A stretch of DNA of 64,000 nt. Origin: Rhizobium sophorae (GTDB taxonomy: Bacteria; Pseudomonadota; Alphaproteobacteria; Rhizobiales; Rhizobiaceae). The position numbers were made by a program, and so were the translations under genes. The notes below the pieces were generated by a model, which saw only the letters and a list, made by a program, of their open reading frames with translations, was not told the origin of the DNA and made no database searches. The stretch lies in the NCBI RefSeq assembly GCF_013087515.1, contig NZ_JABFCN010000030.1, forward strand, positions 248,001 through 312,000, given 5' to 3'. This document shows, piece by piece, positions 48,650 to 62,232 of the stretch. Positions within the stretch are counted from its first letter, which is position 1; each line of letters starts with the position of its first letter.

Positions 48650-49567
48650 TCAGACTTGCGTGGACCTGTGTCTTTGGGATTCGGGAAGCGCAGCGGCCAG
48701 CCGCTGCATCGTCTCCTCAAACAGACGCGCTCCGCCGGGTGCCCAGCCGAGCGCGCGGATTTTCGCAATGTTCATGAGATTGAGTGCTGCGCTATCAGCA
48801 GGGGCCGGCAGCGCGTGCCGACAGCCCGTCTCGCGGCGGATGGATGAAAGGATATCGCGCGTGTCGACTGACATGTCCGAGACGTTGAAGACCTCGCCGG
48901 AGATGCGGGTGCTTTCCGTCTCCAGCATGAGCCTCACCGCCCGACCGAGGTCGCGGCCGTGAACTTCCGTTCCCAGGCGGGCAGCAACCGGCCGGCCGGC
49001 GAGGTAATCGGCGATGAGGCCGTCCCATTTGTTCGGCGACAGATCGCCATAGACGCCGGTCGCCCTCAGGCTTACGCCAGCAAAGCCCGGCGTGGAGAGG
49101 TGGGTAAGCGCGCGTTCGGCATCGAGCTTGACCTGGCCGTAGAGTGTTTCGGGCTTGGCCAGCATCGTCTCCGTCAGTTCGGTTGCCCCGGGATGTTCGC
49201 CGTAGGCGGCGCGGCTGGAGAGGAAGACGCAGCGGCGCGTACCGGCTCGTTTGGCGGCTTCGAAAAGCCGGACGGTGCCGTCGAGGTTCAACTTGTGGAA
49301 GGTCTTCGGATCATCGCCCTCGCCGCCGCGATATTTGCCCGGGACATGGCTGAAGGCGGCGTGGACGAAGAAATAGGCGTCATCGAAGACATCGATCTGA
49401 TCCTTGTCGGGATCGAGCGAAAGCGCCGCGAACTCGACCGGGCGGGAGAAGAGGCGGGGCAGCGGCGCTCGGCGCCCGCCGACGATCACCTGATATCCGG
49501 CGGCCAGCAGTTCCTCGACGACATACCGGCCGACGAGACCCGTTCCACCCGATACCAGTACCTTCAT
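48650..49567 (-). CDS. sqdC: SqdC: NAD(P)-dependent oxidoreductase of the sulfolipid operon
   Basis: The 305-residue extended SDR begins MKVLVSGGTGLVGRYVVEEL, with the glycine motif, a catalytic YGQVK-like Tyr/Lys (ETLYGQVKLDAERAL near residue 148), and SLRATGVYGDLSP. It is the last gene of a three-gene minus-strand operon after sqdB and sqdD, overlapping sqdD by four bases. SqdC is a reductase-like protein of unclear exact role, required for proper sulfolipid formation in Rhodobacter. The assignment rests on operon order. Confidence 0.85.
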   Translation of the reverse strand: MKVLVSGGTGLVGRYVVEELLAAGYQVIVGGRRAPLPRLFSRPVEFAALSLDPDKDQIDVFDDAYFFVHAAFSHVPGKYRGGEGDDPKTFHKLNLDGTVRLFEAAKRAGTRRCVFLSSRAAYGEHPGATELTETMLAKPETLYGQVKLDAERALTHLSTPGFAGVSLRATGVYGDLSPNKWDGLIADYLAGRPVAARLGTEVHGRDLGRAVRLMLETESTRISGEVFNVSDMSVDTRDILSSIRRETGCRHALPAPADSAALNLMNIAKIRALGWAPGGARLFEETMQRLAAALPESQRHRSTQV

Positions 49568-50388
49568 GCTGTCCCTTCCGGATTGTTCAGCGCCGCGATT
49601 TCAGGCACATCGCCGCCATGGTGGAAACGGTGCCATAGATCGATCAAAGGTTGTAATCGCGCTGCCTTGGGATGGTCCTTTTCCCACGGTTTTTCATACT
49701 GGTAATGCAGGATCGAAATGCTCTTCCAGTCCCAAAGGTCCGGCATGGTGAACCATACATATTGCAGCATGTTGAAATAAACCGGCAGGCCGTGCCAATC
49801 CGGGAAGAACGTCTCGAGAAAGGTCTGATCGGTGCGGCGCCAGAACGTGTCCGGCCTGTCGAGCCTTTCGAGCATGTGCCGGAACGTGTCATGCGAGGGC
49901 GTGGCGACGAAGACGCCGGAATTCATGCGCCGGAAGTCGGCGAGGCTTTCGTAGACATTCGGGGCAGCGGAAAATTCCGGATAGCGGAAGAGCCTGTCGA
50001 CGTTTTTCAACACGAGGGCGTCGGCATCGATGAAGACGCAGCGCTGGTATTCGACGAGCTGCCAGAGCTTGAGCTTACAGAAATTGTCGAGCGGCGAATG
50101 GAAATCCGGCTTGCGGCCCTTGGTGAAAGGGGCTGTCGAATGGAGCTGACCGCGGGCGTGGCGCTCGTTGAAGGCCGGAGACAGCGGCAGGTGCTCGACC
50201 TCGATCAGGCGGCAGTCGAGCGCTTCGAGTGGTGAGAGGGCGGCTTTGTCGACGCCGCCGGTGTGGAGAATGACGATGTCGGCCCGGGTGCCGGTTCGGC
50301 GTAGGGAGCGGGCAAGCGCGGTCGCGCCCATGGCGTAATCGGCATTGGTGACGAGTGTGACGTAGGCGAAGACGGACGAGCGGTTCAT
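49564..50388 (-). CDS. sqdD: SqdD: glycosyltransferase family 8 (glycogenin-like)
   Basis: The 274-residue protein has the GT8 fold: VTNADYAMGATALARSLRRT near residue 13, the metal-binding DADALVLKNVDRLF (about 122) and FFPDWHGLPVYFNMLQ near 192. In bacteria with the sqd operon this GT8 enzyme is SqdD, proposed to move sulfoquinovose onto diacylglycerol. It follows sqdB after a 201-bp gap that holds a RIME element and overlaps sqdC by four bases. Confidence 0.88.
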   Translation of the reverse strand: MNRSSVFAYVTLVTNADYAMGATALARSLRRTGTRADIVILHTGGVDKAALSPLEALDCRLIEVEHLPLSPAFNERHARGQLHSTAPFTKGRKPDFHSPLDNFCKLKLWQLVEYQRCVFIDADALVLKNVDRLFRYPEFSAAPNVYESLADFRRMNSGVFVATPSHDTFRHMLERLDRPDTFWRRTDQTFLETFFPDWHGLPVYFNMLQYVWFTMPDLWDWKSISILHYQYEKPWEKDHPKAARLQPLIDLWHRFHHGGDVPEIAALNNPEGTA

Positions 50389-50410
50389 CGGACTCCGCTG
50401 CCCCGATATG

Positions 50411-50553
50411 CTCCCTCATTCCTGTGCTTGTCACAGGAATCCAGCCAGGGCGCGTCGGCGCCGTGAATGACTCTCGTTCTCATGGGTAAGATTCTCCCGC
50501 GCCCAGGGACTTGGGCCCATTGGATTCCTGTGCCAGGCACAGGAATGAGGGAG
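50411..50553. repeat. RIME-like palindromic element between sqdB and sqdD
   Basis: A 143-bp element ended by perfect 17-bp inverted arms (CTCCCTCATTCCTGTGC at the left and its complement at the right). Each end forms a further hairpin (CCTGTG/CACAGG). It resembles, from memory, the Rhizobium intergenic mosaic element RIME. It shares both ends with the element inside tilS (59803-59956), but the middles differ. In the sqd operon it separates sqdB from sqdD by adding most of a 201-bp gap, and may alter mRNA folding or cleavage. Confidence 0.75.
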
Positions 50554-50589: not shown

Positions 50590-51810
50590 TCATGAAACCG
50601 ACTTCAGCCGCTTGCCTTCGGGATCGTGATTGATCGTCGCGGCGATGTCTTTGGTCCAGGCGGAGACGGCCGGTACGCGCGAGCGGTCGACGCGATAGGC
50701 GAATTTCTTCGCGACGTCGACGATCTCGCCGAGCAGGCCGGCTTCCAGCGTAATCGGTTCGAGGCCGAGATTGCGGAACTTTTCGTTTCGGACGATCAGA
50801 TCGTTTTCAGCGGCTTCCTTGCGCGGGTTCGGCAGCCAGGCAATCTTGGCGCCGCTCATCCTGGCGATCATCTCGGCAAGGTCGCGCACCCGGTGGGTTT
50901 CGGTCATCTGGTTGAAGATCTCGACGCGGGCGCCGCGAGCCGGCGGATTTTTCAGCGCCAGCTCGATGCAGCGGACCGAGTCCTGGATATGGATGAAGGC
51001 GCGGGTCTGGCCGCCGGTGCCGTGCACCGTCAGCGGATAGCCGATCGCCGCCTGGATGAGGAAGCGGTTCAGCACCGTGCCATAATCGCCGTCATAGTCG
51101 AAACGATTGATCAGCTGCGCGTGGCGGCGTGTCTGCTCGGTATGCGTGCCCCAGACGATGCCCTGGTGCAGATCGGTGATCCTCAGGCCGTCATTCTTCG
51201 CGTAGAACTGGAAGAGAAGCTGATCCAGGCACTTGGTCATGTGATAGATCGAGCCGGGATTGGAGGGATAGAGGATCTCCTGGCTCACTGTCTCGCCGCC
51301 TGCGGTTTCGATGCCGACCGGCAGGTAGCCTTCTGGGATCGCCGCGCCGACCGTCGAATAGCCGTAGACGCCCATGGTGCCGAGATGGATGAGATGGGCA
51401 TCGAGATTGAGTTCCGTCAGCGCGTTCAGCAGGTTGTGCGTGGCGCTGACATTGTTGTTGACGGTGTAGTTCTTGTGGCGGTCGCTCTTCATCGAATAGG
51501 GCGCGGCCCGCTGCTCGGCGAAATGGATGACGGCATCCGGGCGGTGTTCGGAAAGCCAGTTCTTCAGGAGTTCGTAATCCTTGGCGAGATCGATCAGATT
51601 GAAGTGGATGCGCCGTCCGGTTTCGGCATGCCAGATGCGGGTGCGCTCCTGGATCGAATCCATTGGGGTCAGCGACTGAACGCCAAGTTCGGTGTCGATC
51701 CACCGGCGCGAGAGATTGTCGAGGATATGGATGTCGTGCCCGGCATCGGAGAGATGCAGCGACGTTGGCCAACCAATGAAACCGTCTCCGCCCATAACCG
51801 CAATCTTCAT
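50590..51810 (-). CDS. sqdB: SqdB: UDP-sulfoquinovose synthase
   Basis: The 406-residue extended SDR makes UDP-sulfoquinovose from UDP-glucose and sulfite for sulfolipid (SQDG). The diagnostic parts are MKIAVMGGDGFIGWPTSLHL, GTMGVYGYS, the YHMTKCLDQ active-site Tyr/Lys, QGIVWGTHTEQTRRH, DYGTVLNRFLIQAAIGYP and TGGQTRAFIHIQD. GGAGA seven bases before 51810 decides the start over 51837. It leads the sqdBDC operon. The sulfolipid is important when phosphate is scarce. Confidence 0.93.
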   Translation of the reverse strand: MKIAVMGGDGFIGWPTSLHLSDAGHDIHILDNLSRRWIDTELGVQSLTPMDSIQERTRIWHAETGRRIHFNLIDLAKDYELLKNWLSEHRPDAVIHFAEQRAAPYSMKSDRHKNYTVNNNVSATHNLLNALTELNLDAHLIHLGTMGVYGYSTVGAAIPEGYLPVGIETAGGETVSQEILYPSNPGSIYHMTKCLDQLLFQFYAKNDGLRITDLHQGIVWGTHTEQTRRHAQLINRFDYDGDYGTVLNRFLIQAAIGYPLTVHGTGGQTRAFIHIQDSVRCIELALKNPPARGARVEIFNQMTETHRVRDLAEMIARMSGAKIAWLPNPRKEAAENDLIVRNEKFRNLGLEPITLEAGLLGEIVDVAKKFAYRVDRSRVPAVSAWTKDIAATINHDPEGKRLKSVS

Positions 51811-51951
51811 CGCATCGTCTCCTGATTGGTCGCTCATTATCGGGAATAGTTAGGAATTGTGACAATCATTCAATGCCTGCCGACCGGGCATTCAATGCTT
51901 GCCTGTCTGGAAGCGTTGCGCCAAACAGGGCACCTGAGTTTGGAGAAAATT

Positions 51952-53984: not shown

Positions 53985-55103
53985 ATGAAGGCCAGTGTCA
54001 TCACATCTGCTGTTTTGCACGGCCTGGTGCTTACCTGGGCGATGGTGTCGCTCGGCGCCCCGGAATCCTTCAAGGTGGAGGATTTCGAGGCGATGCCGGT
54101 CGATCTGGTGCCGGTGGAATCCATTACCCAGATGCAGCAAGGCGACAAGAAGGCTCCGAAGAAGGAGACTTCCGCGCCCGTGCCGACGACGCGGCCGCCG
54201 ATCGCGCAACCGGCCGAGAACGCCGGCGACAACAATGTCGACCTGAAGACGCCGCCGGTGCCGAACGCCAAGCCCAGCAATAGCGAGGCTGCCGCGGCGA
54301 ATTCGAGCGAAAAGCCGATGCCGAAGACCGATCCCGTCCCGAATGATGTCAAGGACATCGTCAAGGAGGAAACGGAAATCGAGCAGCCGAAGGAGGTCGC
54401 CTCCATTCCGCCGCCGAAGCCGGTCGAAGTGACGCCGCCGAAGCCGGAGGAAAAACCGCCGGAAGAGCAGGCCAAGCCTGAGGAACCGCCGAAGCCGGAT
54501 GCGGAAGCATTGCCGGACAATGTGCCGACGCCCGTCGCCAAGCCGCAGGTGAAGCCGCCGGAACCACAGAAGCCCGCCGAAAAGCCGCCGGAAAAGACAG
54601 CCGAGAAGCCGACCGAAAAGAAGAAGGCCGATCAGAAGCAGGAGACGGCGAAGTCTGCCTCATCGATGAAGAGCGATTTCAATGCCGATGAGGTTGCGGC
54701 GTTGCTGAACAAGACCGATCCTTCAGCAGGCGGTGCTAAGCGCTCGACGCAGGAGGCATCGCTCGGAGCGAGGAAGAGCAATGGCGGCTCCAAGCTTTCG
54801 ATGAGCGAGATGGATGCGTTGAAAAGCGCCATCGCCGGCAACTGGTCTGTTATTCCCGGCATGGAAGGCGTGAGCGATGTTCGCATCAAGGTGCATATGA
54901 ATCTCGATCAGGACGGCAATATCGTCGGCGAACCGGAAGTCGAGGCGGTTGGTGGCGATAACGAATCTACTCGTCGGGCGCTCGCCGGCGGCGCTTATCG
55001 CGCCATCATGAAATCGGCTCCTTTCTCGTCGCTTCCAAAAGACAAATACGATGCCTGGAGCGAAGTCGTCGTCAACTTCGATCCAAGCGATCTGGGAATT
55101 TAA
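53985..55103 (+). CDS. tolA: Tol-Pal system protein TolA
   Basis: The 372-residue protein has an N-terminal membrane helix (MKASVITSAVLHGLVLTWAM), a long Pro/Lys/Glu-rich periplasmic arm (about residues 60-250) and a C-terminal domain for TolB/Pal contact (SEMDALKSAIAGNWSVIPGM to YDAWSEVVVNFDPSDLGI). TolA transmits force to the outer membrane. Its C-terminal domain is duplicated in the next gene. It is followed at once by that gene (ATG right after TAA). Confidence 0.95.
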   Translation: MKASVITSAVLHGLVLTWAMVSLGAPESFKVEDFEAMPVDLVPVESITQMQQGDKKAPKKETSAPVPTTRPPIAQPAENAGDNNVDLKTPPVPNAKPSNSEAAAANSSEKPMPKTDPVPNDVKDIVKEETEIEQPKEVASIPPPKPVEVTPPKPEEKPPEEQAKPEEPPKPDAEALPDNVPTPVAKPQVKPPEPQKPAEKPPEKTAEKPTEKKKADQKQETAKSASSMKSDFNADEVAALLNKTDPSAGGAKRSTQEASLGARKSNGGSKLSMSEMDALKSAIAGNWSVIPGMEGVSDVRIKVHMNLDQDGNIVGEPEVEAVGGDNESTRRALAGGAYRAIMKSAPFSSLPKDKYDAWSEVVVNFDPSDLGI

Positions 55104-55550
55104 ATGCTGAAGAGCCTGTCTTATTTCGCGAAGTCTTTCGGGATACGCGCGGTGCTGGTGGGGATCGCGATTGGCTTGGCGTTGCCGCTCGAAGCAAATG
55201 CGGAGACGGTTGATCGGGGAAATGGCGGTAAGGAAGCATCCGCTGTCAGTTCGGCTACCGCTGTCGCGATGCGAGATGCAATCCAGAGGCAGTTCAATAT
55301 CGATACCAGTCTGAAAGACATCGGCAACGTGCGTATGACGATTCACGTAAAGCTTGATAGAGATGGCCAGATCGTAGGCGTTCCTGACGTGGAGGCCAGT
55401 GGTGGTCGTGAGAGCACGCGAAAAAGCATTACCAATGCCGGCGTTCGCGCAGTTCGTCGCGCAGCTCCTTTTACGATGCTTCCAAAAGATAAATACGATG
55501 CCTGGAAGGAAGTTATTTTGAACTTCGACACCAGCGCTCTTACGCAATAA
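55104..55550 (+). CDS. TolA C-terminal-domain paralogue with TolB-like signal peptide
   Basis: The 148-residue protein has a signal peptide ([19 protein letters not shown] then ANAE) that aligns gap-free with the first 33 residues of TolB. A C-terminal TolA-like domain follows: [16 protein letters not shown] and [20 protein letters not shown] and [19 protein letters not shown]. It lacks the TolA membrane helix and arm, so it would be a free periplasmic domain that could bind TolB, Pal or colicin-like proteins. It lies between tolA and tolB with one-base gaps, in the operon. It is real and intact by frame; function unknown. Confidence 0.85.
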
Positions 55551-57730: not shown

Positions 57731-58717
57731 ATGAAAAAACTTGTCGTGGCAGGCATGCTGTGCCTCGCGGCTGTGACTGGAAGCGAACGGGCGGCCTATT
57801 CAGCCTCGTTCTTCGGGCTACATCTCGGCGGTCGATCCGCGGAAAACCAGGCGGCTCCGCCCGTCGTCAAGGTGCAGAGCGGCGACGCGGAGGTCCGCGT
57901 GCAGCAGCTCGAAGAGCAGCTGCGGCAGTTGAACGGCCGAATCGAAGAGATGAGCTTTCAGCTTCTGCAGATGCAGGAGACGATCCGCAAGCAGCAGGAA
58001 GACAATGAATTCCGCTTCCAGCAGTTGGAAAAGACGGGTGCTGGCGGTGGCGCCAAAGCCCCTGTCAAGAAGAGCGAGACCGATGCCGCTCCGGCAGCCT
58101 CCGGCGGCGACGACATTGCCAAGGTGATCCAAGCACCGCAGGGAGCCGAAACGGCTCCCTCCACCAGCGTGCCGGAGAATAGCGGTCTCGGCCAACCACC
58201 GAAGGAACTCGGCTCGATCGATTTCGATCAGAACGGCAACCCGATCGGCGGAAGCGTCGACGAAAATGCCACCATCGGTTCCGGTCCGATTCCCGATGCC
58301 AATAGCAAAACACCGCAGCAGACCGCATCGCTCGGCAGCGAGGCAGACCAGTACAAGGCCGCGTATGGCCACGTATTGTCCGGCGACTACAGCACGGCCG
58401 AACAGGAATTCACGCAGTACATCACCCGCTACCCGAGCAGCGCGCGGGCGGCGGACGCCAATTTCTGGCTCGGCGAAGCGCTCTATTCGCAGGGCAAATA
58501 CAACGAGGCGGCCAAGACCTTCCTCAATGCGCATCAGAAATACGGCACATCGGAAAAGGCGCCGGAAATGCTGCTGAAGCTCGGCATGTCGCTTGCGGCC
58601 CTCGACAATAACGAGACCGCCTGTGCGACGCTGCGCGAAGTGTCGAAGCGTTATCCGAAGGCTTCGCGTGCCGTCATAAGCAAGGTTGCGAGCGAACAGA
58701 AGCGCCTCTCCTGCTAA
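57731..58717 (+). CDS. cpoB: Tol-Pal system protein CpoB (YbgF)
   Basis: The 328-residue protein has a signal peptide (KKLVVAGMLCLAAVTGSER). A coiled coil follows (about residues 50-105, EVRVQQLEEQLRQLNGRIEE and MQETIRKQQEDNEF). A low-complexity linker then leads to a C-terminal TPR region from about 215 (YKAAYGHVLSGDYSTAEQEF and FWLGEALYSQGKYNEAAKTF). CpoB coordinates peptidoglycan synthesis with the Tol system. The start at 57731 follows GAC-rich sequence with no strong SD; the longer frame upstream is non-family. Confidence 0.93.
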   Translation: MKKLVVAGMLCLAAVTGSERAAYSASFFGLHLGGRSAENQAAPPVVKVQSGDAEVRVQQLEEQLRQLNGRIEEMSFQLLQMQETIRKQQEDNEFRFQQLEKTGAGGGAKAPVKKSETDAAPAASGGDDIAKVIQAPQGAETAPSTSVPENSGLGQPPKELGSIDFDQNGNPIGGSVDENATIGSGPIPDANSKTPQQTASLGSEADQYKAAYGHVLSGDYSTAEQEFTQYITRYPSSARAADANFWLGEALYSQGKYNEAAKTFLNAHQKYGTSEKAPEMLLKLGMSLAALDNNETACATLREVSKRYPKASRAVISKVASEQKRLSC

Positions 58718-58728
58718 GGTCTTCCGGA

Positions 58729-60204
58729 ATGTCTCCGGAAGCCGCATCGCCTCAACTGGCGATCCTCCAGTTTCTCACGTCGCTTCAAAGCCCCGCACGC
58801 ATTCTCGTCGCGATCTCGGGTGGCAGCGATTCGACCGGCCTGCTTCTTCTCCTCGATGAAGCCGTGAAGGCCGCCCCCCATCTCAAGATTTTCCTTTGCG
58901 CTGCGACCGTCGATCATGCGTTGCGCGCGAGCTCCACAGACGAGGCGCGTGAAGTCGCAACCCTCTGTGCATCGCTTGGCATTCCCCACACCACCATGAT
59001 CTGGCAGGGTGACAAGCCGAAGACCGGAATCATGGCTGCGGCCCGAGAGGCGCGTTATGGCTTGCTTGCGACTGCCGCCAATGACTTCAAAGCCGATCTC
59101 ATCGTCACGGGGCATACGTTCGACGACCAGCGCGAAACACTGCAGATGCGTGGGATGCGAACAGAGCAGGTTTCGACCGGTATTGGAGATGCAGTGCTCT
59201 TCGACCGGCGTTTCTGGATTTTACGGCCGCTTCTTTTTTCCACCCGGGCAGATATCCGCGCGTTCCTGGAAGAGCAGGGCGTGCCGTGGATCGACGATCC
59301 CAGCAACGAGGATACCAAGTACGAGCGCGTGCGGACGCGCCGGCAGCTTTCGGCCGATGCAGGCATGGAGAAGGATATTGGCGCGGCCTGGGAGGAGCGG
59401 CTGGGCCTGTCGTCCAGAGGAGCCGAATGGTTGGATCGTCATTTCCGGCTTCACGGCGGCCTGCTCGGGCAGGTGATGCCTGACGGGTTGCGGCAGGATC
59501 GCCTCGTCCTCGATTATGTGCTCGCTCGTCTGGCAGCCGTTTTCGGTGGACAGCCGTTTGTGCCGGGCAGGGCGCGGATGGAGCGGGTTCTCACATTTGC
59601 CACCGGCAGCGGGCTTGGACGAATGACCGCCGGCAGGGTGGTGTTTGATCTCAGGCGTGACGGGCTTTATCTGGCGCGCGAGAGCCGGGGGATATTGCCC
59701 CTGGTTCTGCGGCCGGGAGAGGCTGGGGTTTGGGATGGAAGGTTTTATGCGTGCAATGGTTTGTCCACATCGATAGTGGTCGAGGCCGCCACTCTATACG
59801 CCCCCTCATTCCTGTCCTCGGACTTGATCCGAGGGATGTCACAGGAATCCAGTGCGCCCAAGTCCTTGGGCGCACAAGACACTTCGCGCCTTATTGAGTC
59901 AATCACCGCGGAGAAGCGCGATGGCTGGATTCCTGTGACGAGCACAGGAATGAGGGAGCGTATTCAGCAGCTTCCCAAGGGCGCATGGAGGCGCGCTATC
60001 GCTTCGGCGCCGGCGCTATCGGCCGAAGGGGCCTCTTTATCAGAGGAATCCGCCCGCATGGTCGAACTAACACCCTATTTCGCACCCTTCGACCGCTTTT
60101 TGACACGATTTGACGTCATCTTTGCCAATAGACTTTCGGCGGTTTTCGCGACGGCGCCCTATGCGAGGCTGCCTTTAAGAAGTATTGACGGAAAAACCAC
60201 CTGA
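58729..60204 (+). CDS. tilS: tRNA(Ile)-lysidine synthase, with a RIME-like insertion
   Basis: The 491-residue enzyme makes lysidine at position 34 of tRNA-Ile(CAU). The PP-loop SGGSDSTGLLLLLDEA starts near residue 30; GHTFDDQRETLQMRG and PSNEDTKYERVRTR follow. Between about residues 359 and 410 an extra stretch (PSFLSSDLIRGMSQESSAPK ... RLIESITAEKRDGWIPVTST) is encoded by a 154-bp palindromic element (59803-59956), after which the normal C-terminus resumes (FDRFLTRFDVIFANRLSAVF). Without it the protein would be about 440 residues, the usual size. The frame is intact, so the protein is probably made with this loop. Confidence 0.92.
   Translation: MSPEAASPQLAILQFLTSLQSPARILVAISGGSDSTGLLLLLDEAVKAAPHLKIFLCAATVDHALRASSTDEAREVATLCASLGIPHTTMIWQGDKPKTGIMAAAREARYGLLATAANDFKADLIVTGHTFDDQRETLQMRGMRTEQVSTGIGDAVLFDRRFWILRPLLFSTRADIRAFLEEQGVPWIDDPSNEDTKYERVRTRRQLSADAGMEKDIGAAWEERLGLSSRGAEWLDRHFRLHGGLLGQVMPDGLRQDRLVLDYVLARLAAVFGGQPFVPGRARMERVLTFATGSGLGRMTAGRVVFDLRRDGLYLARESRGILPLVLRPGEAGVWDGRFYACNGLSTSIVVEAATLYAPSFLSSDLIRGMSQESSAPKSLGAQDTSRLIESITAEKRDGWIPVTSTGMRERIQQLPKGAWRRAIASAPALSAEGASLSEESARMVELTPYFAPFDRFLTRFDVIFANRLSAVFATAPYARLPLRSIDGKTT
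59803..59956. repeat. RIME-like palindromic element inside tilS
   Basis: CCCTCATTCCTGT at the left and ACAGGAATGAGGG at the right end a 154-bp element. Its left end forms a hairpin and its centre holds GCGCCCAAG/CTTGGGCGC. It shares both ends with the element at 50411-50553 but not the middle. It is read through in frame and adds about 50 residues to TilS. Edges are estimated from the arms. Confidence 0.75.
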
Positions 60205-60300
60205 CTTAGGGGATCGCCTTGGCAATCGCACGGCGCAACCCTATGTTAGAAACGAATAAGGCGGTCGCCATGAGGCGGCTGTTCCATGCTGGGGAGTTCA

Positions 60301-62232
60301 ATGAACCCTAACTTACGTAATTTCGCCTTGTGGGCGATCATAGCGCTTCTGCTGATCGCCCTTTTCAGTATGTTTCAGACGGCGCCGGCACAGACGGGCT
60401 CCCGCGAAATCCCTTATTCGCAGTTTCTGCGTGAGGTCGATGCGGGCCGTGTGAAGGACGTCGTGGTCACGGGCAACCGTCTCTCCGGAAGCTATGTTGA
60501 AAATGGCACCACCTTCCAGACCTATTCACCGGTGATCGACGACAGTCTGCTCGATCGCCTGCAGTCGAAGAATGTCCTGGTTTCCGCCCGTCCTGAAACG
60601 GACGGCTCTTCGGGTTTCCTCAGCTATCTCGGCACGCTTTTGCCGATGCTTCTGATTCTCGGCGTTTGGCTGTTCTTCATGCGGCAGATGCAGGGCGGTT
60701 CGCGCGGGGCCATGGGCTTCGGCAAGTCCAAGGCCAAGCTGCTCACCGAAGCGCATGGCCGCGTGACCTTTGAAGACGTCGCCGGTGTCGACGAGGCCAA
60801 GCAGGATCTCGAGGAAATCGTCGAATTCCTGCGTGATCCGCAGAAGTTCCAGCGCCTCGGCGGCAAGATCCCGCGCGGCGTGCTGCTCGTCGGTCCTCCA
60901 GGCACCGGCAAGACGCTGCTCGCCCGCTCGGTTGCCGGCGAAGCCAATGTGCCCTTCTTCACCATTTCAGGTTCCGACTTCGTCGAAATGTTCGTCGGCG
61001 TCGGTGCAAGCCGTGTGCGCGATATGTTCGAGCAGGCGAAGAAGAATGCGCCCTGCATCATCTTCATCGACGAAATCGATGCCGTCGGCCGCCATCGCGG
61101 CGCCGGTCTCGGCGGCGGTAATGACGAACGCGAGCAGACGCTGAACCAGCTGCTGGTCGAAATGGACGGCTTCGAGGCGAATGAAGGCGTGATCCTGATT
61201 GCCGCTACCAACCGTCCCGACGTTCTTGACCCGGCGCTGCTGCGTCCCGGCCGTTTCGACCGTCAGGTCGTGGTGCCGAACCCCGACATCGTCGGCCGCG
61301 AGCGTATCCTCAAGGTGCATGCGCGCAACGTTCCGCTGGCGCCGAATGTCGATCTCAAGATCCTCGCCCGCGGTACGCCCGGTTTCTCCGGCGCCGACCT
61401 GATGAACCTCGTCAACGAAGCCGCCCTCATGGCCGCCCGCCGCAACAAGCGCGTCGTCACCATGCAGGAATTCGAGGACGCCAAGGATAAGATCATGATG
61501 GGCGCCGAGCGCCGTTCCTCGGCGATGACCGAGGCGGAAAAGAAGCTCACCGCTTACCATGAGGCCGGACACGCCATCACCGCGCTCAATGTCGCCGTCG
61601 CTGATCCGCTGCACAAGGCGACGATCATTCCGCGCGGCCGTGCGCTCGGCATGGTCATGCAGCTTCCCGAGGGCGACCGCTACTCGATGAGCTACAAGTG
61701 GATGGTTTCGCGCCTCTGCATCATGATGGGCGGCCGTGTTGCCGAAGAGCTCACCTTCGGCAAGGAGAACATCACTTCGGGTGCTTCCTCCGACATCGAG
61801 CAGGCGACCAAGCTTGCCCGCGCCATGGTCACGCAGTGGGGCTTCTCCGATCAGCTCGGTCAGGTCGCCTATGGCGAGAACCAGCAGGAAGTCTTCCTCG
61901 GCCACTCGGTTTCGCAGTCGAAGAATGTTTCGGAAGCAACCGCGCAGAAGATCGACAATGAAGTGCGCCGCCTGATCGACGAAGCCTATACCCAGGCCCG
62001 CACGATCCTGACGGAAAAGCACGACGAATTCGTCGCCCTTGCCGAAGGTCTGCTCGAATACGAGACGCTGACCGGCGAAGAGATCAAGGCGCTGATCCGC
62101 GGCGAAAAGCCTTCCCGCGATCTCGGCGATGATTCGCCGCCGAGCCGCGGCTCGGCTGTACCGAAGGCCGGCGCACGGCCTGCCACCAAGGGCGACGAGC
62201 CCGAAGGCGGCCTCGAACCGCAGCCGCATTGA
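60301..62232 (+). CDS. ftsH: ATP-dependent zinc metalloprotease FtsH
   Basis: The 643-residue membrane protease has two N-terminal membrane helices (about residues 6-24 and 107-127) around a periplasmic part. The AAA+ domain has Walker A GPPGTGKT at residue 198, Walker [23 protein letters not shown] near 315. The protease part holds HEAGH at 420. It removes misfolded membrane proteins and regulators. The start at 60301 follows GGGGAG. The C-terminal tail is Pro/Gly-rich. It stands between tilS and glmM, the usual rhizobial order. Confidence 0.97.

Follow-up and report, generated by a model that had tools for sequence, protein, structure and literature searches.

The tilS gene in the window, i.e. 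the 64,000 nt stretch of Rhizobium sophorae DNA that was analyzed, contains a palindromic element of the RIME type which is predicted to be read in frame. The element is found in the same linker of TilS in many Rhizobium species and lies there in both directions with the frame open. Its two forms are scattered over the tilS tree as if at random, are linked to the nt sequence that adjoins the linker, and do not occur in TilS of the other genera examined. The element is probably selfish DNA that is tolerated in a free linker of TilS and has spread between species as a cassette of ~240 bp by short-tract recombination.

tilS encodes a predicted tRNA-Ile lysidine synthase, and the abstract of PMC10128029 describes the gene as essential in Burkholderia. 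In the window it is one uninterrupted open frame of 491 aa. The PP-loop domain PF01171 is at residues 25–205, and the TIGR02432 (TilS_N) model gives 146.3 bits against a cut-off of 93.6. A profile made from 29 TilS sequences aligns to the solved TilS structure 3a2k as far as profile position 300, thus the insert follows the catalytic and middle part and precedes the conserved C-terminal stretch. This agrees with the location given in the original prediction, which was made from the sequence of the window and described a palindrome read in frame inside tilS; the 491 aa frame is intact and the element corresponds to about residues 357–412 (~50 additional aa). The increase in length that had been proposed, from about 440 to 491 residues, is also correct, as tilS genes that lack the element are mostly 429–444 aa long, counted from the aligned start to the stop (the longer ones are G030, 458 aa, and G079, 455 aa). 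AlphaFold with 13 sequences of close relatives gives a mean pLDDT of 32.5. The open frame that ends upstream of tilS at position 58717 is presumably a YbgF-like gene, and the downstream open frame from position 60286, ~80 bp past the tilS stop codon, is taken to be ftsH.

Table 1. Positions, in the window, of the tilS gene, the palindromic element and its parts
Feature	Position	Strand	Basis
tilS (predicted tRNA-Ile lysidine synthase), 491 aa, with insert	58729–60204	+	open frame; PF01171; TIGR02432; profile against 3a2k
RIME-like palindromic element with terminal arms	59796–59963	+	inverted repeats; fold z −10.1; copies in own genome and genus
Left terminal arm, 25 nt	59796–59820	+	92% complementary to 59939–59963
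Right terminal arm, 25 nt	59939–59963	+	pairs with 59796–59820
Optional hairpin module of left arm	59816–59835	+	fold; presence/absence in alignments; missing from many other copies
Inner left arm, 15 nt	59838–59852	+	100% complementary to 59925–59939
Core hairpin TGCGCCCAAGTCCTTGGGCGCA	59853–59874	+	fold; recurs in intergenic copies
Inner right arm, 15 nt	59925–59939	+	pairs with 59838–59852
Putative exchangeable linker cassette (approximate limits)	59745–59982	+	direction-linked columns; edges between G000 and G111

A palindrome had been placed at 59803–59956, a stretch that runs from CCCTCATTCC to GGAATGAGGG, with arms of 13 bp. The palindrome is present there but its true arms are longer, an outer pair of 25 nt and a nested pair of 15 nt (Table 1). 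The predicted RNA fold of the element has an energy of −99.9 kcal/mol (z = −10.1) and none of 200 dinucleotide shuffles is as good; folded as DNA the element has a z of −11.7. Thus the palindrome is not due to chance. Covariation in the reverse forms (described below) is weak, with 2 of 48 pairs and a covariation term of +0.85. An Rfam search of positions 58500–60500 gave no match.

The element is a member of a large repeat family. The window's own genome has 15 pieces that match it, with the tilS copy counted in, two richer genomes have 73 and 77, and matches are present in 70 of 100 genomes drawn from the genus. Plasmid sequences show matches at 559 places in 176 records, 110 of them from Rhizobium and 62 from Sinorhizobium. 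Among the matches listed, 2 of 60 plasmid rows name a hypothetical protein under the match and the others show no feature or no annotation; the same absence of a feature or of annotation is seen under the match in a further 60 overlapping plasmid rows among those listed. A second copy in the window (positions 50406–50535, minus strand) is situated between the open frames 49564–50388 and 50590–51837 (locus L005). The window also has a direct repeat of 77 nt, 79% identical, at positions 55017–55093 and 55464–55540.

TilS was located in all of 148 Rhizobium genomes and is encoded by an intact single frame in 147. In the remaining genome (G007, locus L048) the gene is split near residue 180, at a distance from the insert, into two frames that overlap, and the frameshift is either a sequencing error or real; this genome was left out of the alignment, the tree and the linker scores. 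Each linker was scored against both strands of the element and compared with 100 shuffles, and a score of 38 was set as the threshold for carriers. Scores are at or above 38 in 65 of the 147 linkers, 26–34 in seven and 23 or lower in 75. The 65 carriers have the whole element or a recognizable part of it, some of them short remnants, and always in one and the same linker. In the 82 tilS genes below 38 the element is absent or eroded past the threshold, and the seven linkers of intermediate score (G033, G099, G104, G115, G130, G014, G058) may be old remnants. By reading of the alignment, the full forward form is present in five of 12 named relatives (R. johnstonii 3841, R. laguerreae FB206 and R. 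ecuadorense are examples) and the full reverse form in three (e.g. R. chutanense C5 and Rhizobium sp. CCGE 510). The forward form is shortened in R. leguminosarum USDA 2370 and Norway, and the last two relatives, R. vallis and R. hidalgonense, have remnants. A distant clade (L038, L045, L120) displays extra linker residues on both sides of the element, with a compared region of 100–118 aa; these extra residues are missing in sister species, e.g. G022, G015 and G032.

The forward and reverse forms differ in two respects, the reading phase is off by one base and the core is in the opposite direction. A plain flip in place thus cannot convert one form to the other. Translation of the left arm gives SFLC-LSQES in the forward form, where the end of the insert is GGWIPVTSTGMRE, and SLIPVLVTGIQ in the reverse form, where the end is LDSCDEHRNEGG. 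The peptides encoded are unrelated, and it is by the two phases and both core directions that one element gives unrelated peptides. Two genomes, G034 (L022) and G043 (L045), have the reverse phase with a core that scores forward, as if the core alone had been inverted between the arms.

Both ends of the insert are recognized in 47 tilS genes, and the insert length is divisible by three in 44 of these (24 have one starting phase and 20 have the other); in the three exceptions the start was set wrongly during trimming. Copies outside of tilS were trimmed for comparison. Trimming failed for six of the 44 copies located, each of which belongs to the window's own genome, and two others were removed as duplicates; the 36 intergenic copies that remained are mostly from G056 and G047. 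The trimmed length is a multiple of three in 25 of the 36, thus the usual sizes of the family favor survival inside a gene. Frame B− is open in 24 of these copies, A+ in 18, B+ in 14, C+ in 8, A− in one and C− in none. By scores and by reading, the inserts in tilS use A+, B− and (in G034 and G043) B+ only, i.e. the three frames most often open in intergenic copies.

The form of the insert is independent of the ancestry of the gene. A tilS tree was made without the linker (147 rows, 1251 columns); counts of forward and reverse forms on it exclude the remnant forms, and G034 and G062 were entered as reverse although the core of G034 scores forward. In the main clade, where 22 forward and 22 reverse rows represent 44 species, at least 16 changes of form are needed, and 17 when eight rows of distant clades are added. 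Shuffling of the labels 200 times gives a mean of 15.1 changes (range 10–19), with 154 of the 200 needing 16 or fewer, and it is this closeness of observed to shuffled values that indicates independence. On a more carefully built tree of 63 rows the number of changes is still 13, and a single clade of reverse forms is rejected (p-AU 1e-41).

Sequence next to the insert behaves differently. Between forms and within forms the divergence of the N-terminal part is 0.173 and 0.173 (difference 0.000), and that of the C-terminal part 0.147 and 0.144 (difference 0.003, with 137 of 2000 permutations as large). For the 43 bp upstream flank the values are 0.535 and 0.352, a difference of 0.183 that is reached by none of 2000 permutations, and for the 18 bp downstream the difference is 0.071, again with 0 of 2000. 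A clear association with form is seen in the alignment segment adjoining the linker (R2 0.17); the next segment downstream has 0.04 (p 0.06). The single columns that exceed the permutation limit begin 16 bp ahead of codon 345 and continue until the linker ends, and thus take in ~50–60 bp upstream and ~19 bp downstream of the insert.

The same is seen in single pairs of genes. The 12 closest pairs of opposite form differ by 4–8% in the N-terminal part and by 3–10% in the C-terminal part, and the 43 bp upstream flank is 47–63% different. The window's gene (G000) and that of G111 have 0 of 30 differences at positions −60 to −31 relative to the linker, 10 of 30 at −30 to −1 and 11 of 27 at the linker start; at the downstream edge the end of the linker has 6 of 18 differences and the sequence directly after it 0 of 30. 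Sharp edges of this type are found in nine pairs of opposite form, the window's gene included. In six control pairs of the same form the linker start shows 0 of 27 differences in four, and 14 of 27 and 5 of 27 in the other two, thus one form is not one haplotype.

One intergenic copy was compared with its relatives. The flanks differ too much, with whole spacers replaced between the conserved genes, and for this reason no empty site can be read for a target-site repeat. The replacement parallels that proposed for tilS, and the linker thus behaves like a spacer. At L255–L284 a spacer between two conserved frames has, in several relatives, a different repeat of the CTTCTCCCC...GGGGAGAAG type, and here too whole spacers seem to be exchanged between species.

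Replacement of the cassette by recombination in the conserved flanks is the simplest account of the pattern of divergence. In the proposed process, a non-autonomous palindrome of the RIME type would have entered the linker of Rhizobium TilS that joins the N-terminal and middle part to the C-terminal part. It probably persisted there for three reasons: the linker appears to be free in both length and sequence, a large share of copies have three of the six frames open and tilS shows no frames but these three, and the sizes common in the family are divisible by three. Together with its insert the linker would then act like an intergenic spacer, and the ~240 bp cassette would be replaced between species via homologous recombination in the conserved parts of the gene that border it. 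With species replacing the cassette, forward and reverse forms would become shuffled over the genus, and deletions would erode the element with the frame kept. We consider it rather doubtful, though conceivable, that one mobile palindrome has supplied TilS with two unrelated linker peptides of ~45 residues by strand and phase, that these were traded across Rhizobium species until ancestry fails to predict the form, and that the alternation is perhaps kept by selection on TilS.

Many independent insertions at one preferred site in tilS, with no exchange of linkers, would be a different explanation and an unlikely one. Divergence among inserts is 0.103 (forward–forward), 0.090 (reverse–reverse) and 0.110 (forward–reverse), and the values with intergenic copies are 0.107 (intergenic–forward), 0.094 (intergenic–reverse) and 0.092 (intergenic–intergenic). 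On average, sharing a form thus brings inserts no nearer to each other than they are to intergenic copies, as would also be expected from separate entries, and the two phases together with the inverted core in G034 and G043 require at least two entries or a later rearrangement. Because the inserts do not group by form, repeated insertion stays a rival for part of the history. However the direction of the insert is tied to unique upstream sequence, and a fresh insertion would spare the flank that is so different in the closest pairs of opposite form. Within each form the divergence of the insert also tracks that of the gene (Spearman 0.51 and 0.54).

Constraint on the insert was assessed in pairs with equal insert length and not more than 35% difference (29 of 190 forward pairs and 52 of 190 reverse pairs). 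The dN/dS of the insert is 0.86 in the forward and 0.71 in the reverse form, intergenic copies read in the same frames have 0.86 and 0.91, and the N-terminal part of the same pairs has 0.26 and 0.19. Constraint at the protein level is weak, and the insert peptide looks nearly unconstrained apart from staying open. The dS of the insert is 0.13–0.15, compared with 0.50–0.59 for the N-terminal part. This low dS may be the result of a young cassette, of conversion from other copies, or of constraint at the DNA or RNA level.

The last of these touches on an RNA role, in which the hairpin would be kept for stability or expression of a tilS-ftsH transcript and not just tolerated. The very stable fold, the low dS and the start of the presumed ftsH frame so close behind tilS are in keeping with such a role, which is nevertheless improbable, as the element is absent or eroded in more than half of the tilS genes (82 of 147) and reduced to short remnants in some carriers, compensatory changes are few, and the inserts have diverged as much as the intergenic copies.

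Sequences from outside of Rhizobium concern the origin of the segment. A sample of 121 genomes gave 54 with matches, 30 loci were taken and 28 of these belonged to other genera (28 genomes, 26 genera). All 28 TilS linkers are short, lack the element and score 24 or lower. The original prediction would have been refuted by a segment shared by every rhizobial TilS in the absence of the palindrome, and comparison of relatives with and without the element, in Rhizobium (65 against 82 of 147) and in these genera, gives no such picture. The short linkers argue for insertion, and on these alignments the element in tilS is judged to be an insertion. An old rhizobial protein loop that resembles a palindrome by accident would fit with the constant site in one linker, but it is rejected as hardly credible since none of the 28 has the element, forward and reverse peptides are unrelated and the DNA family is found at many other places. 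Equally remote is the suggestion that tilS is a pseudogene or an assembly artefact in carrier strains, for which the split gene of G007 might be cited, and it is rejected because 147 of 148 tilS genes are single open frames, the window's genome has a single match to the TilS N-terminal part, dN/dS of that part is 0.19–0.26, and the complete record of R. johnstonii 3841 has the insert.

Other copies of the element were surveyed at 44 loci (two places are in twice) and at 12 loci chosen for long frames, which is a part of the family. A frame that spans the element is present at 42 of the 44 loci. Pfam analysis of ten spanning frames shows CcmH in one, di-haem oxidoreductase in two and no match in seven, and both types of domain start after the element and not across it. 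The 14 longest spanning frames, from nine of the 12 long-frame loci, are taken to be oxidoreductase, PabB or IspH genes that start after the element, or to be antisense. By open frames, Pfam (ten frames) and reading, no in-frame copy inside another recognizable gene was found at the 44 and 12 loci, a survey that could miss small or unfamiliar proteins. In seven genomes (L188, L192, L194, L290, L292, L293, L294) the element is upstream of a di-haem oxidoreductase gene and open in frame with it (assigned by Pfam for L192 and L194, by reading for the other five). Here the element may lengthen the annotated N-termini.

The RIME sequences are described, in passages of later papers, as Rhizobium-specific intergenic mosaic elements (Osteras, Stanley and Finan 1995; via PMC2573895, PMC2245857, PMC3687685). 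The element in the window resembles them as a repeated palindrome of Rhizobium and Sinorhizobium that is mostly between genes, an assignment that is by description (repetition, hosts and location) and not by comparison with the published RIME1 and RIME2 sequences. It differs in that one copy is inside a protein gene and in frame. A piece of the element of ~60 bp is ~285 bp before the match to PEPCK (pckA) in one of 14 genomes tested, which is no more than suggestive. The pckA-chvI region is the original place of RIME.

Rickettsia palindromic elements (RPE; Ogata and others 2000, 2002) are given in passages of PMC2229807 and PMC10969869 as repeats of 105–146 bp with terminal inverted repeats, fused in frame within many Rickettsia genes, conserved protein genes included. 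The comparison with RPE made in the original prediction is apt in the sense that the tilS element works like them, as in both cases a conserved protein gene has a palindromic repeat within its open frame. Membership in that family is not borne out, as RPE are in many unrelated genes and here one gene was found in the loci checked. Further differences are that at the one tilS site the element occurs in either direction and in two phases, and that the host genus is free-living, has large genomes and seemingly exchanges the insert between its species. ERIC and Correia elements are MITEs, which the same two papers (PMC2229807, PMC10969869) characterize as non-autonomous repeats with frames able to fuse with host genes. 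The tilS element likewise has terminal inverted repeats; unlike the ERIC and Correia cases, it resides in the gene for a conserved enzyme of tRNA modification, and dozens of species have it at the same site. By analogy it may be filed as RIME-like with an RPE-like effect. No report of an insert in TilS or of an in-frame RIME was found among the titles and abstract openings listed by searches of open-licence literature.

Palindromes read in frame are already known from Rickettsia, and what is new here is that one site in a conserved enzyme has the element in both directions and that species probably swap it there. Protein-coding palindromes, which are best described in Rickettsia, are thereby extended to a genus of free-living symbionts. 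Peptides of the element also occur in open frames beside other genes, where annotation could be misled. The tilS linker amounts to a natural experiment, with one enzyme, one site and dozens of species in which the same DNA is read both ways, is eroded or is absent. This makes testable how selfish DNA becomes protein, how much a linker tolerates, and what the minimum piece is that is exchanged between bacterial species.
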